Of a stretch of 38,631 bases of DNA, positions 9,185 to 14,969 are shown in pieces. The position numbers were made by a program, and so were the translations under genes. The stretch comes from Desulfobacterales bacterium. Its GTDB lineage: Bacteria > Desulfobacterota > Desulfobacteria > Desulfobacterales > JANQIE01. The notes under the pieces are model-generated. The model worked only from the letters and a program-made list of their open reading frames with translations. It was not told the DNA's origin and searched no databases. The DNA is taken from positions 1 to 38,631 of the forward strand of contig JANQIE010000123.1 of assembly GCA_028282295.1 (NCBI GenBank), written 5' to 3'. How positions within the stretch are numbered: the stretch's first letter is position 1; every line of letters begins with the position of its first letter.

Positions 9185-11311
9185 TCAGGCCGCCTGAGAT
9201 AAGGTTTGCTGCATGGTCTCCACCAATTGTTGGACATCCAGAATAAGCGCCACGGTCCCGTCGCCGAGAATGGTCGCACCGGAGATTTCACGGATATCCT
9301 GATAGGTTCTGCCTAAAGATTTGATAACGGTTTGATGCTGTCCGATAAACCGGTCCACGCCGAAACCGATGCGCATCCCATTGGATTCCGCCACCACGAC
9401 CTGCTCAAATTCCGGCGCCGCTTCTTCCACGGCGAACATCCGGCGCAGGCTCATGTAGGAGACGACGTCTCCACGCAGGTTGATCATGGTGCGATCCTGG
9501 GCTTGATCGGCCTGCGCGCGGGTCAGTTCCAGGCATTCTTCCACCGACGCCAGCGGCATGACGTACATGCCGTCGCCGATCTTAACCAGAAACCCGTCGA
9601 TGATGGCCAGGGTCAGCGGCAGCTTCAGCGTCATCACCGTGCCCTGCCCCGGTGTACTTTCCACGTCCACTTGACCGCGCAAGGCCTCGATGCTTTGTTT
9701 GACCACATCCATGCCGACACCACGTCCGGACACACCGGAAATCTCACCAGCAGTGGAAAAACCGGGCGCAAAAATCAGGTTGTAGATCTCTTTGTCGCTC
9801 AGGTCGGCGTCCGCCGTGATCAAGCCTTTTTCCAGGGCCTTGGCGCGAATTTTGTCCACCGACAACCCGGCCCCGTCATCGGCGATGCGGATCAACACAT
9901 TGGCGCCGGCATGCGAGGCCGACAGGTTCACGGTGCCATGGGGCGGTTTGCCGTCGGCCTGGCGTACATCGGGAGCTTCGATGCCGTGGTCGATGCTGTT
10001 GCGGATGATATGCACCAGGGGATCACTCAGTTGCTCGATAACGGTTTTATCCAATTCGGTTTCCCCGCCGCTGGTGTTCAATTCGACCTGTTTGCCGAGT
10101 TCCTTGGACAGATCACGGACCAACCGCTTGAATTTGGCAAAGGTGGTGCTGATCGGCAGCATGCGAATGCTCATGGTATTGTCGCGCAGTTCGGCGGTGA
10201 GCCGCTCGACTTCCTCGGAAATGGTGAGCAGTTCCGCATCCATGTTTTGACTCGCCTTTTGCGACAACCGCGCCTGCACCGTGACCAGTTCACCCACCAG
10301 GTCGACCAGCGTGTCGAGCTTGTCCGCGGCGACACGGATGCTGGACGCGGTTTTGGCGGCCCGCCGCTCCTGGCGTTTGGTTTTGACCATGTCCTGCTCA
10401 AGCAGGGCCGACTCGATTTTACCCGGATCGACCAGATCGGACTCCACCAGCATCTGGCCGATTCGTTTTTGTCCGTTCAATAATCCCGTCAAGTCTTCGG
10501 ACGACACATCGCCGCGCTCGACCAGGATTTCGCCCAACCGTTTATAGTTTTCTTCACCTAGACCTTCTTCGTCCACCGGTTCGATGGTCAGGTCACAATC
10601 ATCTTCGACAAAAATGAACACGTCGCGAATGGCGTTGACGCCTTGGTCGGTCACCAGAACAATATCCCAAAAGGTGTAGCAGGCCTCCGGCTCAAGGGCG
10701 TCGAGTTCGGGTATGTTGTCGGTCTGCGCCAAATAACTGCACTGCCCCAAGTCGGCCAGTTCCTTGAGCAGCAGTATCGGATTACTTCCGTTGGCGAGCA
10801 GTTCAGGGTGAGGCCGGAACCGAATGCGGTAGATCGTCTCCACCCGTTCTTCTTCCGGTGCGTTGTCGATCCCGGCCAAGGCGCCGGCCCCGGTTGCGGC
10901 CATGGCGTCGGCATCCGGCGCGCTGTCATTGTCGCCGCCATCTTGCAGGGCTTTAAAGGCATCGATGATTTCACGCCCGCGCACCGTGTCCACCGCCGAG
11001 CCGTCTTCATCGGCTTCGAGCAGCAGTTTGATGTGATCGCGGGCCGCCAGGCCCAGGCTCATCAATTGGGGGGTTACCGTCAGTTTACCTTCCCGCACCA
11101 GGTCGAAAGTGGTCTCCACCTCGTGGGTAAATTCGGCGATATCGTCAAACCCGAACATGGCGCCGGACCCCTTGATGGTGTGCATGGCGCGAAATACACG
11201 GCCGACCAGCTCCATGTCTTCCGGTTTTTCTTCGAGCTCCAGCATGGCCTCTTCCAGTTCGGCCAGCAGCTCATAGGCTTCTTCTTTAAAAATCGCTTTT
11301 TGGTTGTCCAT
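9185..11311 (-). CDS. cheA: Chemotaxis histidine kinase CheA
   Basis: Cytoplasmic kinase of the receptor array, which autophosphorylates under MCP/CheW control and passes phosphate to CheY. Length is 708 residues. The HPt domain has the phosphoacceptor H44 in MHTIKGSG. A regulatory region follows at about 158-245. A paired repeat at about 257-306 (RLGEILVERG ... RIGQMLVES) resembles MshEN/GspE-N repeats. Next are the dimerisation helices (about 322-388), the HATPase with N box around HIIRNSIDHG (434-443), G boxes ADDGAG and GRGVGMD, and the CheW-like P5 domain to the C-terminus. The ATG at 11311 follows GGAG by seven bases; a GTG four codons upstream overlaps that site and is less likely. It lies 35 bp after cheY. 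Confidence 0.97.
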   Translation of the reverse strand: MDNQKAIFKEEAYELLAELEEAMLELEEKPEDMELVGRVFRAMHTIKGSGAMFGFDDIAEFTHEVETTFDLVREGKLTVTPQLMSLGLAARDHIKLLLEADEDGSAVDTVRGREIIDAFKALQDGGDNDSAPDADAMAATGAGALAGIDNAPEEERVETIYRIRFRPHPELLANGSNPILLLKELADLGQCSYLAQTDNIPELDALEPEACYTFWDIVLVTDQGVNAIRDVFIFVEDDCDLTIEPVDEEGLGEENYKRLGEILVERGDVSSEDLTGLLNGQKRIGQMLVESDLVDPGKIESALLEQDMVKTKRQERRAAKTASSIRVAADKLDTLVDLVGELVTVQARLSQKASQNMDAELLTISEEVERLTAELRDNTMSIRMLPISTTFAKFKRLVRDLSKELGKQVELNTSGGETELDKTVIEQLSDPLVHIIRNSIDHGIEAPDVRQADGKPPHGTVNLSASHAGANVLIRIADDGAGLSVDKIRAKALEKGLITADADLSDKEIYNLIFAPGFSTAGEISGVSGRGVGMDVVKQSIEALRGQVDVESTPGQGTVMTLKLPLTLAIIDGFLVKIGDGMYVMPLASVEECLELTRAQADQAQDRTMINLRGDVVSYMSLRRMFAVEEAAPEFEQVVVAESNGMRIGFGVDRFIGQHQTVIKSLGRTYQDIREISGATILGDGTVALILDVQQLVETMQQTLSQAA

Positions 11312-11346
11312 TTTTTTCTCCACGTATCGTCATGGGATGACTTATT

Positions 11347-11712
11347 CTAGCCGAGTATTTTTTTAACCACCGCCAATAGCTGGTCCGGCTTGAAGGGTTT
11401 TACGATCCAGCCGGTGGCGCCGGCGGATTTACCCTCCTGTTTTTTGCTGGCCTGGGACTCGGTGGTAAGCATCACGATCGGAACGAATTTGTGCGCGGCC
11501 AGGCCCCTGACACTGCGAATTAAACCGATTCCGTCAAGATTGGGCATGTTCAAGTCGGTTATGATCAGGTGTACTTTGCTGCCGTTGAGTTTGGACAGGG
11601 CATCCTGGCCGTCGCAGGCTTCCAGCACATCATATCCGGCGCCTTTGAGGGTGAAGCCGACCATCTGGCGCACGCTGTTGGAATCATCTACCGTCATAAT
11701 TGTTTTTGCCAT
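11347..11712 (-). CDS. cheY: Single-domain response regulator CheY
   Basis: Receiver protein of 121 residues with all catalytic positions: acidic pair D9/D10, phosphoacceptor D53 (ITDLNMP), T83/T84 and K105 (VKPF). There is no output domain. It is probably phosphorylated by the CheA encoded 35 bp downstream. The STAS gene ends 12 bp upstream on the same strand, so STAS, cheY and cheA probably form one operon. A GGGGGG-type ribosome site precedes the ATG. Whether its target is a flagellar switch, a pilus motor or another output cannot be told, because no motor genes are in view. Confidence 0.95.
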   Translation of the reverse strand: MAKTIMTVDDSNSVRQMVGFTLKGAGYDVLEACDGQDALSKLNGSKVHLIITDLNMPNLDGIGLIRSVRGLAAHKFVPIVMLTTESQASKKQEGKSAGATGWIVKPFKPDQLLAVVKKILG

Positions 11713-11724
11713 GGATATCCCCCC

Positions 11725-12060
11725 TTAGCTATTCCATACACAAGTGTGTGCCGGACTCGAACAACATTCCCGGTTCCGCACAAAGCCGGCGTCCTTATGA
11801 AAATCAAGGAATCTTTGCGACTTTATTTCACCCAGTTTCATCGTCTTGCCCGTCTTGATGGCGGTTTGATGGGCCGAGCAGATGATCTGCAAAAAGGTCA
11901 AGTCGACACTTTCAACCGCACCAATCTCGATAATTACTTCATCATGACCGGCAAACACCTGTGTAAACTGCCTTGCGATTGAGCCGGCTTCGGAAATGGT
12001 CAGTTCCCCCTGTAACAGAATCTTTTGCGTTTGCGCCTTTTTCTTCGCTTTTACTGTCAT
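11725..12060 (-). CDS. STAS-domain protein (anti-sigma-antagonist-like)
   Basis: Small cytoplasmic protein of 111 residues with a single STAS-like fold. It has a basic N-terminus, an ILLQGELTI strand, and VESVDLTFLQII at the position where SpoIIAA-type proteins carry their phosphorylatable Ser/Thr; here T55 follows D53-L54. STAS genes next to cheY and cheA occur in other chemosensory loci, but their role there is not settled. No anti-sigma kinase or PP2C phosphatase gene is in the window. The C-terminal 15 residues are rich in Cys and Ser and do not look like part of the fold. AGGGAG lies upstream of the ATG. This appears to be the first gene of the STAS-cheY-cheA unit. Confidence 0.85.
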   Translation of the reverse strand: MTVKAKKKAQTQKILLQGELTISEAGSIARQFTQVFAGHDEVIIEIGAVESVDLTFLQIICSAHQTAIKTGKTMKLGEIKSQRFLDFHKDAGFVRNRECCSSPAHTCVWNS

Positions 12061-12133
12061 ATGTGTCTCCCTTTACCAGTTTCGCATCAGTGTCATCGAC
12101 TTAGAGCCGTTTACGTTGTTGTCCATTGCGGTT

Positions 12134-12473
12134 ATCCATAAGACCCAAGTGGGTTCGGCCATGGTAAAAGTTGCCTGCCGGGGATTTTTCCCTTCAAGGC
12201 ATCGCCGTCAGGCTAAGAAAAAAATGAATAACAATGTGAGCAAAATTGCATGTCGAAGCCTGACAATAACACTTAAGCATTTTTGCAATATTTCCTGGAT
12301 TCCCGCGCAGGCGGGAATCCAGGAGATGTCCCCAAATGCGTAAATTGCTTGTTCCGACGGCTCGCCGCAACGCTAGTGCGATTTACAAATTCCCTTGGCC
12401 TGACGGCGATGCCTTCAAGGGGAAATTCCAGGAAACATTTTTGTCTTCCTGCGCTAACTTGGGTTTTATGGAT
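12134..12473. repeat. 340-bp nested inverted-repeat element (MITE-like)
   Basis: Long imperfect arms, 12134-12217 and 12394-12473, are inverted copies. Both outer ends read ATCCATAARACCCAAGT and both inner ends carry TTCAAGGCATCGCCGTCAGG or a near match (one arm has TTGAAGG). Almost centred between them is a second perfect palindrome, TCCTGGATTCCCGC/GCGGGAATCCAGGA at about 12292-12325. The element fills the 429-bp gap between the STAS gene and the next gene and has no convincing reading frame. It could be a non-autonomous mobile element or two REP-like units in opposite orientation. Confidence 0.7.
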
Positions 12474-12489
12474 GAGCGCATTGTCCTTT

Positions 12490-14535
12490 TTAAAATAGCT
12501 CGACGTTGTCACCCAGGTCATCGTCTTTCTCTTCCTCCGATCCTTTGCAGGGTATTATTTCGGCGATGTTATCCTCCGCCGGTGGCGACAGGTTCGGTTC
12601 GGAAGCTGTTGTGTCCGAACCGGTTGCAGGCTCGTCGCAGTCAAACAGCACGACATCATCCGCTTCGTTTGCGGGCTCGTCGTCAAACAGGTCGATTGCA
12701 CCGGCCTCGGTGCTGATCGTTCCGAGCATTTGCTCATGTACTTTGCGTTCCTGGTCCATGGTGTAGCTGGCCGCCAATTTGGCGGCTTTGTCATGACCGC
12801 CGGCCACGCCGGCTGCGGCCCAGGGCGCCAGACAGTGCTCCAGCTCGGTGAACAACGCCAGACTCCGGTCAAATTCCTGCCCCAGGGTGTCGAAAAAAGC
12901 CATGTGATGCTGCACCGAGTCGATGCGCGCTTTCAGCGTTTTGCCGACGTCAAGTCCCTTGGCGGTTTCTTCCCGGTAACCGTCATAAGCTTGCGCAAAG
13001 CAGGTCATACCGTCTTCTACCGACTGCTTGCTTTCATCGGTTTCACTTGCGCTTGCTGTACCCACCTTGGCCCGGGCAGCAGAAATTGCCTCGATTTCCA
13101 CCTGCACTTTGTTGACGAAATTATTGCAATCCGAAGACAACTGCCGCACCTGACGTGCCAGCACCTCCAGGGTGCGGCCCTTTTCCCCCATGTGGGCCGC
13201 CTTGATAATGGCGTTCAGGGCCATGATGTGAACCGCCAGGCTGATCCGGCGCACCTTGCCGGCCTCGCCTTGCAACACCTGGGCGCTACGTTCGGCGTTC
13301 CCCAGGGTGCCGCGTACCCGCTGGAGCATATCGGCGCCGCCACCCAATAACCGGTGCAGGGTGTCCAGGGTACCGTGCAGGCGTTTAAATGCGTCTTCAA
13401 AGCTATCGGTCTGATCACCGGCAAGGGGTTGCGGTTGCTCCAGACCCTTTAAATCGGCCAACAGCCGCTGGACTTGATCATTGATTGACGTGAACGCATC
13501 GCGGTTTTGGCCGTAGACCTGTCGCGTTTCGTCGATCACCTGTTCAAGCTGCGCTTTTTGAAGGGTGACAACCGTGTGGGCGGTCATTAAACGTTCGGTG
13601 ACCTTGGCGGGCGCGCCTGGGGAAGAGGTATTCCGGCACAGGTTCAAAATGTCGGTCAGCGCCGCGACCATATGCTCCAGGCGCTGGGCCATGTTGTCAT
13701 GAAACTGGATGCCGGCGACAACTTCACCGACCTGGGCGGAGATCGCCGTGGAATGCTCGGCCGCCTTGTCCAGGGTCTGTACGGCCAATGCCGTCATGTG
13801 CTGCACGTTGTCGGCCGCTGCTTTCACGGCCTGATGGGCCTTCTGGGCCAACTGGTCGGCTTTTTTGAAACCGAGGGAAACTTCCCAGTGCGCTTTTTGC
13901 TGATCTTTCAGAGCGGTTTCAGATTCATCGCGCAACTCGATGACGATACGGTTGATCTTACCGGAAAGCTTTTGAATTTCCTCGGCCAGCACCTGGAACA
14001 TGGTGCGGCCTTCTTCACTGCGGGCGCACTCGACACCGATATTAAAACCGATTATGCGGAAAAACAGCGCAACTTTTTCTACCTTGGTGCAATACAGATT
14101 CAGTTCCGCAAGGTGTTCGATGCTGTCGTTCAAAGCGTCCAGGTTGAAGGTCATGGCCTGCCGACTTTTCTCCAGCTCTTCTTCGGCATCGGCCGCCAGG
14201 GCGGTAATGCGTGCCGGTAGATCACCTGCGGTGTCGGCGCCGCTGAAAAACCGTACGGATGTGCGGGTGCGCTCGGCCAGTTGCTGGGCGTCGGCCCAGG
14301 CGGTCTGGAGTTGTTCGCCCAGATCGAGAAAGGGCCGTTCATAGTGCGGCCCGATGGTGTTTAACCGGTCTGCGAGCGTCTCTATTATACTGAGCGCTTT
14401 TCTGGTTCGCCCCGCAGCGATGAATTTGCGCCGCACAGTCTGTATAATTTCAGAACCGCTTCGGCCAAGCGTTGCCGTATGCTTAATGCCGGCCGCGGCC
14501 GTGACATGCATTTTTTCAATTTGCTCGCGTATCAT
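12490..14535 (-). CDS. Soluble coiled-coil protein with two diverged MCP-tip motifs
   Basis: A 681-residue protein with no signal peptide or membrane segment, predicted cytoplasmic and mostly helical. Two stretches resemble the MCP signalling hairpin tip: 161-191 (GFNIGVECARSEEGRTMF, then LAEEIQKL) and 438-468 (MALNAIIKAAHMGEKGRTLE, then LARQVRQL). Each is followed by a shorter motif of like character, GIQFHDNMAQRLEHM at 275-289 and VQHHMAFFDTLGQEFDRSL at 541-559, which suggests an internal duplication. The C-terminal 75 residues are strongly acidic and probably disordered. It starts 14 bp after the pseudo-receiver gene, so the two are surely co-transcribed. It could dock on a CheA/CheW array, but the classic tip residues are altered. 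Function unknown. Confidence 0.85.
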   Translation of the reverse strand: MIREQIEKMHVTAAAGIKHTATLGRSGSEIIQTVRRKFIAAGRTRKALSIIETLADRLNTIGPHYERPFLDLGEQLQTAWADAQQLAERTRTSVRFFSGADTAGDLPARITALAADAEEELEKSRQAMTFNLDALNDSIEHLAELNLYCTKVEKVALFFRIIGFNIGVECARSEEGRTMFQVLAEEIQKLSGKINRIVIELRDESETALKDQQKAHWEVSLGFKKADQLAQKAHQAVKAAADNVQHMTALAVQTLDKAAEHSTAISAQVGEVVAGIQFHDNMAQRLEHMVAALTDILNLCRNTSSPGAPAKVTERLMTAHTVVTLQKAQLEQVIDETRQVYGQNRDAFTSINDQVQRLLADLKGLEQPQPLAGDQTDSFEDAFKRLHGTLDTLHRLLGGGADMLQRVRGTLGNAERSAQVLQGEAGKVRRISLAVHIMALNAIIKAAHMGEKGRTLEVLARQVRQLSSDCNNFVNKVQVEIEAISAARAKVGTASASETDESKQSVEDGMTCFAQAYDGYREETAKGLDVGKTLKARIDSVQHHMAFFDTLGQEFDRSLALFTELEHCLAPWAAAGVAGGHDKAAKLAASYTMDQERKVHEQMLGTISTEAGAIDLFDDEPANEADDVVLFDCDEPATGSDTTASEPNLSPPAEDNIAEIIPCKGSEEEKDDDLGDNVELF

Positions 14536-14549
14536 GTTTCACCCTGCAC

Positions 14550-14969
14550 TCATACCGGCGGATTGTCCGGCGTCAAAATCGCCTCGTTCGCTACCGACGG
14601 CGGACGACTTTGAATCAGTTTGCGTAAAATACGTCCGATGTCCGTATAGTTATCCTGTGCTTCACACATAAAGCGCGGCCACAAGCGAAACCCGGCGGCA
14701 ATGGTCTGGGGATGCTGATCCGGTAAAACCAGGAGCACACACAGATCGGCAAGCAGATCGCGGATGGATACGAGATTGGAAAGATCAGCATGATTCTCGG
14801 CCACCAGGACGGCGGCCATCAGATCATAGGTCGGTTGATGCAACCGGTGAAAAAAATATTCGAAAGTACTGCACATCTCGATCTGGTTTGCCGGCAACAC
14901 CGATTCGATCGCATGACGCAAGGGATCATCTTCGGTTTCCGCTTTTTTGGAGTATAGTAAAAGCTTCAT
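14550..14969 (-). CDS. Receiver-like protein lacking the phosphoacceptor site
   Basis: A 139-residue protein. The order of strands and helices suggests a CheY-like fold: MKLLLYS as first strand, YDLMAAVLVAE where the phosphoacceptor strand would be, and CVLLVLPD as the next. It has neither the acidic pair, nor the Asp, nor the Thr and Lys of an active receiver, so any signalling would be phosphate-independent. The ATG at 14969 is preferred to a start at 15086 because the upstream 39 codons look non-coding and an AAAGG-type site precedes 14969. It is 14 bp upstream of the coiled-coil gene and about 105 bp downstream of a sigma54-like promoter. The fold assignment is inference from sequence pattern only. 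Confidence 0.7.
   Translation of the reverse strand: MKLLLYSKKAETEDDPLRHAIESVLPANQIEMCSTFEYFFHRLHQPTYDLMAAVLVAENHADLSNLVSIRDLLADLCVLLVLPDQHPQTIAAGFRLWPRFMCEAQDNYTDIGRILRKLIQSRPPSVANEAILTPDNPPV

Follow-up and report, generated by a model that had tools for sequence, protein, structure and literature searches.

The 681-residue protein P1, encoded in the 38,631-nucleotide stretch of Desulfobacterales DNA analysed here (hereafter the window; contig JANQIE010000123.1), is soluble and consists of two diverged signalling hairpins of methyl-accepting chemotaxis proteins (MCPs) arranged in tandem, and it carries a DxxxQ motif, which is known as the phosphatase motif of CheZ (PMC7750401). Given this CheZ signature and the position of its gene beside cheY and cheA, P1 probably represents an overlooked enzyme that switches off chemotaxis signals. 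Specifically, we favour, with somewhat better than even confidence, the reading that P1 is a single-chain, receptor-shaped CheZ-type phosphatase of phosphorylated CheY (CheY-P), an activity suggested by comparison with CheZ. The initial annotation of this region mentioned neither the DxxxQ motif nor the C-terminal tail, the STAS gene and the multi-copy repeat element that are described below. The features are compiled in Table 1.

Table 1. Features of the P1 locus in the window, and membrane-bound relatives of P1 at other loci (L numbers).
Feature	Position	Strand	Basis or remark
CheA	9185..11323	-	Hpt, dimerisation, HATPase and CheW domains
CheY, proposed substrate of P1 (predicted)	11347..11712	-	D9, D10, D53, T83 and K105 present
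STAS_2 protein	11725..12060	-	Pfam, 32.3 bits; synteny
P1, soluble protein of two tandem MCP hairpins; DxxxQ motif resembling that of CheZ	12490..14535	-	681 aa; Pfam, homologues, AlphaFold2
C-terminal peptide GDNVELF-COOH of P1, aa 675-681	12493..12513	-	proposed CheY-tethering peptide (predicted)
Disordered acidic linker of P1, aa 612-674	12514..12702	-	AlphaFold2 pLDDT <50
YTMxxERxxH motif of P1, aa 591-600	12736..12765	-	common to the MCP-free 180-200-aa relatives
Second MCP-like hairpin tip of P1, aa 438-468	13132..13224	-	hhalign, hairpin 2 vs MCP
QFHDxxxQ of P1, aa 277-284, predicted phosphatase motif D280xxxQ284	13684..13707	-	95/95 homologues; aligned to CheZ DxxxQ
First MCP-like hairpin tip of P1, aa 161-191	13963..14055	-	hhalign, hairpin 1 vs MCP
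ExxFxxLG motif of P1, helix 1, aa 66-73	14317..14340	-	predicted opposite DxxxQ motif across hairpin
P2, 139-aa pseudo-receiver	14550..14969	-	ends 14 bp before P1 start; AlphaFold2, Foldseek
NtrC-type sigma-54 activator, upstream of P2	15236..16648	-	Sigma54_activat and receiver domains
Third-type membrane MCP	L163:2678-3760	-	predicted N-terminal membrane segment, tip, Q[FS]QDxxxQ, terminal (D)xVEFF; just 3' of large cheA
Third-type membrane MCP	L164:5770-6966	-	as L163
Third-type membrane MCP	L165:5679-6794	+	as L163
Third-type membrane MCP	L174:6413-7549	+	likewise, just 3' of large cheA
Third-type membrane MCP	L180:5951-7156	+	likewise, just 3' of large cheA

The open reading frames of P1 and of its upstream neighbour P2 were confirmed. 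In the Pfam comparison, the whole P1 protein reached 43.1 bits with MCPsignal (PF00015; cut-off 34.6), and a whole-genome scan gave one MCPsignal match in each half (37.0 bits at 12982-13251 and 24.8 bits at 13720-14196). The same domain was matched by all 40 P1 homologues tested. Full-length alignment of hairpin 1 with hairpin 2 by hhalign resulted in a probability of 99.6 (E 8.7e-23), and comparison with bona fide MCP hairpins gave 98.5% for hairpin 1 and 99.5% for hairpin 2. Hence, the internal duplication of P1 is far beyond chance. When the P1 family profile was compared to solved structures, the top matches were chemoreceptors only. No sensor or HAMP domain was found in P1 with Pfam, and neither Pfam nor hydropathy indicated a membrane segment (highest 19-residue Kyte-Doolittle mean 1.47). 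These missing segments do not exclude MCP membership, because soluble MCPs exist. The initial annotation had described a membrane-free protein with two diverged, internally duplicated copies of the MCP tip pattern, and all of this was borne out, including the relationship of both tip regions to MCPs in the profile comparison.

In the AlphaFold2 model, P1 forms two extended helical hairpins, whose turns lie at residues 171-173 and 449-453, and the chain is disordered from residue 612 onward; with a pTM of 0.57, the packing of the helices is uncertain. Foldseek comparison of P1 with the PDB listed MCPs among the best matches but was uninformative, since such a long coiled coil was superposed as a rigid body (rmsd 10-120). 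P1 is a natural single-chain, soluble form of the receptor signalling domain. It shares with the MCP signalling domain the hairpins, two of them, with recognisable tips. It differs from MCPs by the lack of sensor, HAMP domain and membrane segment, by its diverged tips, by the lack of an aromatic CheR-type pentapeptide and by the presence of the DxxxQ motif. R. centenum is among the microbes for which natural soluble single-chain MCPs of unknown function have already been reported, and Tsr-Tsr fusions made by engineering were found to signal (PMC4692393). P1 resembles these natural proteins in being soluble and in combining two fused MCP signalling hairpins, whereas no enzymatic motif has been described for them.

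Residue conservation was analysed in two sets of homologues. In the first set of 40 proteins, which are 20-30% identical to P1 over the alignment and were not fetched with the C-terminal peptide, E66, F69, G73, V273, Q277, D280, Q284, N441, N677 and F681 were invariant. The larger set comprised 95 unique full-length homologues with 20-32% identity to P1. Here, F69, G73, Q277, D280, Q284 and F681 were each found in 95/95 sequences, E66 in 92 and V273 in 93. The best-conserved residues of P1 are hence located at the tip-distal end of hairpin 1 and at the C-terminus, not at the hairpin tips. The index sums 66+280, 69+277 and 73+273 all equal 346, which fits the predicted turn at 171-173 and places E66, F69 and G73 opposite to V273, Q277 and D280 across the hairpin. 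The sequence and the position predicted for the turn would accordingly bring the conserved residues together in one patch approximately 107 residues away from the tip. A further motif is kept at a somewhat lower level (Y591 in 84/95, E596 in 87/95 and H600 in 85/95). The C-terminal tail follows the consensus GDN[VI]ELF, with N677 in 94, E679 in 93 and F681 in all of the 95 sequences; these tail counts are biased, since part of the set was fetched using the C-terminal peptide as query, and the N and F of the peptide were also present in 40/40 members of the first set. We also considered the existence of two DxxxQ sites per protein. The second repeat of P1 in the window indeed contains D549xxxQ553, but this second site is not found in the homologues.

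CheZ is described as a dimer of hairpins, in which a four-helix bundle carries the DXXXQ motif and a linker leads to a helix at the C-terminus that binds CheY (PMC7750401). The P1 helix 195-310 was compared by hhalign to 16 CheZ proteins from the same order. One run resulted in a probability of 84.8%, and a run with default options in 92.0% (score 41.3), with the D of P1 aligned on the D of CheZ. As controls, the corresponding helix of the second P1 repeat reached 3.1% and bona fide MCPs 3.7%, while the scores were at most 13.2 with column-permuted CheZ, at most 27.5 after permutation in blocks of seven columns and 13.6 with reversed CheZ. The signal is confined to P1 residues 272-291, i.e. 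approximately 20 residues, and masking them abolished it. However, it must be mentioned that P1 itself did not match the Pfam CheZ model (PF04344), and that its homologues stayed below the curated cut-off. Only 5/40 homologues matched at E <= 0.01 (best 1.3e-4), L124 reached 22.3 bits with a cut-off of 30.7, and a whole-genome search with the CheZ profile recovered three P1 homologues (G015, G047 and G175; best 24.9 bits, E 2.7e-5), again below the cut-off. In G015, the D occupies the same profile column as the D of true CheZ. Furthermore, some unrelated coiled-coil models score comparably to or better than CheZ on P1 homologues. Since the tested Pfam cut-off was not reached, we do not file P1 as a member of the CheZ family.

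P1 and CheZ have in common that the DxxxQ lies on the second hairpin helix, that a C-terminal acidic linker carries a short terminal peptide, and that the genes are linked to cheY and cheA. They differ in the origin of the hairpins, which are MCP-derived and two per chain in P1, and in the distance of the motif from the turn, which amounts to approximately 107 residues in P1. In E. coli CheZ, this distance is approximately 40 residues, as estimated in part from the residue numbers in PMC7750401. The P1 tail and the CheZ C-terminus (..LLxxxGF) are alike only in acidity and the final F.

Motif and tail of P1 were also found together on other scaffolds. Proteins of 180-200 amino acids contain a QF[YH]DxxxQ helix that scored 96.8% against the P1 motif helix, and they have in common with P1 a [RK]YTxxxxR motif and a terminal NVELF-like peptide, with a probability of 96.4% against the P1 C-terminus. 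They contain no MCP hairpin (0.2% probability against MCPs) and reached only 2.4% against CheZ; one of them used as query matched P1 homologues at the motif. Members of this family (L263-L272) display QFYDxxxQRLxH, [RK]YxxxxD[RK] and the terminal NVELF-like peptide, and no Pfam or NCBIfam model exists for them. Judging from these motifs, they are candidate stand-alone CheY phosphatases. A third type of 360-520 amino acids combines a well-kept MCP tip with a subsequent Q[FS]QDxxxQ, present in 8/8 proteins, and scored 85.4% against CheZ. Its tails are closely similar to that of P1, mostly DN[VI]EFF with the variants DDVEFF and GGVEFF. Most of these proteins possess N-terminal membrane segments, and several of their genes are situated directly 3' of a large cheA (Table 1). 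These membrane MCPs are apparent MCP-CheZ hybrids. Tentatively, and with less than even confidence, the three types may be combined into one unnamed superfamily of CheY-P phosphatases, characterised by QF[HQY]DxxxQ together with a [DN][VI]E[LF]F-type peptide at the C-terminus. Its scaffolds would be an MCP-free one of approximately 190 amino acids, a membrane-anchored single MCP hairpin and a soluble tandem of MCP hairpins, and the receptor hairpin itself would serve as the body of the phosphatase. If this is true, the CheY-P signal would be produced and removed within one array. As a side observation, the P1 homologue at L094:7323-9222 is split near the DxxxQ region into two adjacent open reading frames (400 and 230 amino acids), by either a frameshift or natural fission.

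In the window, the minus-strand order is NtrC-type activator, P2, P1, STAS, CheY, CheA and MCPs, and the order P1-STAS-cheY-cheA is conserved. The STAS gene is the most constant neighbour, being directly next to P1 in order in 61/97 P1 loci. CheY is encoded within three genes of P1 in 78 and CheA within four genes in 74 of the 97 loci, and many of the loci without a counted CheY or CheA neighbour are interrupted by contig ends. The phosphorylation residues are retained in the 78 distinct CheY proteins encoded near P1; N occurs at position D+2 in 76/78 and E at T+2 in 77/78, as is also true for the CheY of the window. For E. coli CheY, a role of Glu89 in CheZ-mediated dephosphorylation has been reported (PDB 1MIH title).

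On this basis, P1 most likely works like CheZ. The two fused hairpins would fold back on each other, so that one chain corresponds to a receptor dimer. In hairpin 1, E66, F69 and G73 on one helix and Q277, D280 and Q284 on the other would build a single patch far from the tip, where D280 and Q284 would act as the Asp and Gln of CheZ do, placing CheY-P and water for the hydrolysis of the aspartyl phosphate. P1 would dephosphorylate the CheY encoded in the same operon, which may be tethered by the C-terminal peptide on the disordered acidic linker in a manner similar to the C-terminal helix of CheZ. The receptor-like tips may, moreover, put P1 into or near the CheA/CheW array where CheY-P is produced; we hold this docking with lower confidence than the phosphatase activity.

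The initial annotation had suggested a decoy or scaffold for CheA/CheW. In a broader form, P1 might be a cytoplasmic chemoreceptor made of a single chain, or a component of the array with the role of a scaffold, decoy or intracellular sensor, and influence CheA/CheW via its tips, with QFHDxxxQ having a structural role or serving another partner. Such a function would agree with the MCPsignal match of all tested homologues, with the existence of soluble single-chain MCPs and signalling Tsr-Tsr fusions, and with tip 1, in which E169 (90/95) and R172 (78/95) are kept in most members. However, the tips are altogether less conserved than the DxxxQ patch. N165 of tip 1 is found in 48/95 homologues, and in tip 2, where N441 is retained in 94/95, the E and R of MCPs are replaced by K and H/R/K (K445 in 57/95, H448 in 54/95). 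P1 also lacks a sensor domain, and a structural role of the motif would not predict the CheZ profile similarity. Since the conservation peaks off the tips and the CheZ-like signature with the tail occurs also in proteins without an MCP tip, a decoy or scaffold as main function is unsupported, and we regard the array component as an unlikely, though the most serious, alternative. Still less probable is a non-catalytic role in which P1 would only bind CheY or some other receiver, perhaps P2 among them, and act as a CheY sink or array tether. The invariant peptide on its disordered linker, the cheY linkage and the receiver fold encoded 14 bp upstream would be compatible with binding, but a pure binder leaves the invariant D-x3-Q in CheZ register unexplained, and P2 is absent from most P1 loci. 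Finally, P1 could be an adapting receptor and GDN[VI]ELF a form of the NWETF-like tether for CheR/CheB, as N-x-E-x-F equals NWETF at three positions and cheR and cheD occur in some clusters, but this is very improbable and was rejected as the main reading because 0/86 ordinary MCPs of the same loci have the P1-type tail (59/86 end in an aromatic-x-x-aromatic pentapeptide), while the tail also ends the 180-200-aa proteins without MCP domain and has V or I, and no aromatic residue, at position 2 in the sequences listed.

The che clusters of Geobacter are without recognisable cheZ, and a survey of them led its authors to conclude that the mechanism at work must be independent of CheZ (PMC2577667). 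The arrangement P1-STAS-cheY-cheA is present in Geomonas and Geotalea loci, and P1 is a concrete candidate for such a mechanism in Geobacter-type clusters. Among the 194 genomes of the order, P1 was detected in 44 and CheZ above the cut-off in 14, with both in 2. Mutual exclusion of the two is not significant in these genomes (Fisher p 0.74), and CheX is present in 42/44 P1-bearing genomes. Hence, P1 is not required to fill a genome-wide gap, and a replacement of CheZ by P1 genome by genome is unsupported. Phylum-wide, 63/395 genomes match the P1 family at E <= 1e-20, with approximately 40 of the best matches nearly full length. Named P1-bearing records belong to Desulfosarcina, Desulfoluna, Desulfatitalea, Geotalea, Geomonas and Candidatus Magnetobacterium, and P1 relatives occur also in a few metagenome-assembled genomes filed under other phyla. 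An alignment-based contig scan detected 142 P1 relatives, whereas the scan with a single P1 query gave no match. Plasmid searches returned only ordinary MCPs with the P1 query and no match with a 184-aa relative.

No Pfam or NCBIfam model names the P1 family as phosphatase, and no published report on it was found in the open-licence literature. In numerous sulfate-reducing and iron-reducing bacteria, genes of P1-like proteins adjoin cheY and cheA. The family hints at a connection of the receptor hairpin with a CheY-P phosphatase that, to our knowledge, has not been described so far, and it suggests a likely function for proteins which automatic annotation would name methyl-accepting chemotaxis proteins.

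P2 was correctly recognised in the initial annotation as a receiver without any phosphorylation residue. Its AlphaFold2 model shows a (beta-alpha)5 fold (pLDDT 91.6), and the Foldseek matches were receivers as well as the TadZ/CpaE and KaiA pseudo-receivers (probability 1.00, TM 0.5-0.75). Pfam gave no receiver match for P2. The phospho-acceptor Asp, the acidic pair, the Thr/Ser and the Lys of receivers are absent from P2, and the acceptor Asp is also absent from its homologues, a family of approximately 130 amino acids. As judged from the model, P2 is hence a receiver fold without phosphorylation residues. It shares this fold with TadZ/CpaE and KaiA, but differs from them as a stand-alone protein of approximately 130 amino acids that adjoins NtrC and che genes and has its own motif, ILILPD...PRF, which is kept in the family. 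The proposal of a fixed P1-P2 module did not hold, since P2 is directly upstream of P1 in only 5/97 P1 loci; P2 is an occasional partner of P1. More frequent neighbours of the P2 family are an NtrC-type gene together with genes for MCP or CheW. A paralogue in the same genome (L068:5574-6002, contig C181) is situated between an NtrC-type gene and cheW plus MCP, which indicates that P2 tracks NtrC/che loci more than P1. Speculatively, P2 may relay the state of the array to the NtrC-type activator. In three other loci (L090:8931-9398, L097:3799-4155 and L098:7088-7408) a small thioredoxin-like protein (SPTFILFYNGEEKGRLLGKAD) is encoded at the P2 position instead.

A sigma-54 promoter upstream of P2 was considered and rejected; the best match was within one mismatch, and the window contains fewer matches than expected by chance. 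Scans for sigma-70 promoters and terminators were near or below chance. In Geomonas (L262:2375-5476), the P1-che cluster lies 3' of feoB and an iron-dependent repressor/FeoA gene, and Geotalea (L235) has open reading frames of similar size at the position of these Geomonas genes. The gap between P1 and STAS in the window (12124-12483) contains a nested inverted-repeat (MITE-like) element, which has many related copies in the genome (101 matching segments) and parts P1 from STAS-CheY-CheA here, whereas the corresponding genes of the relatives are close together.
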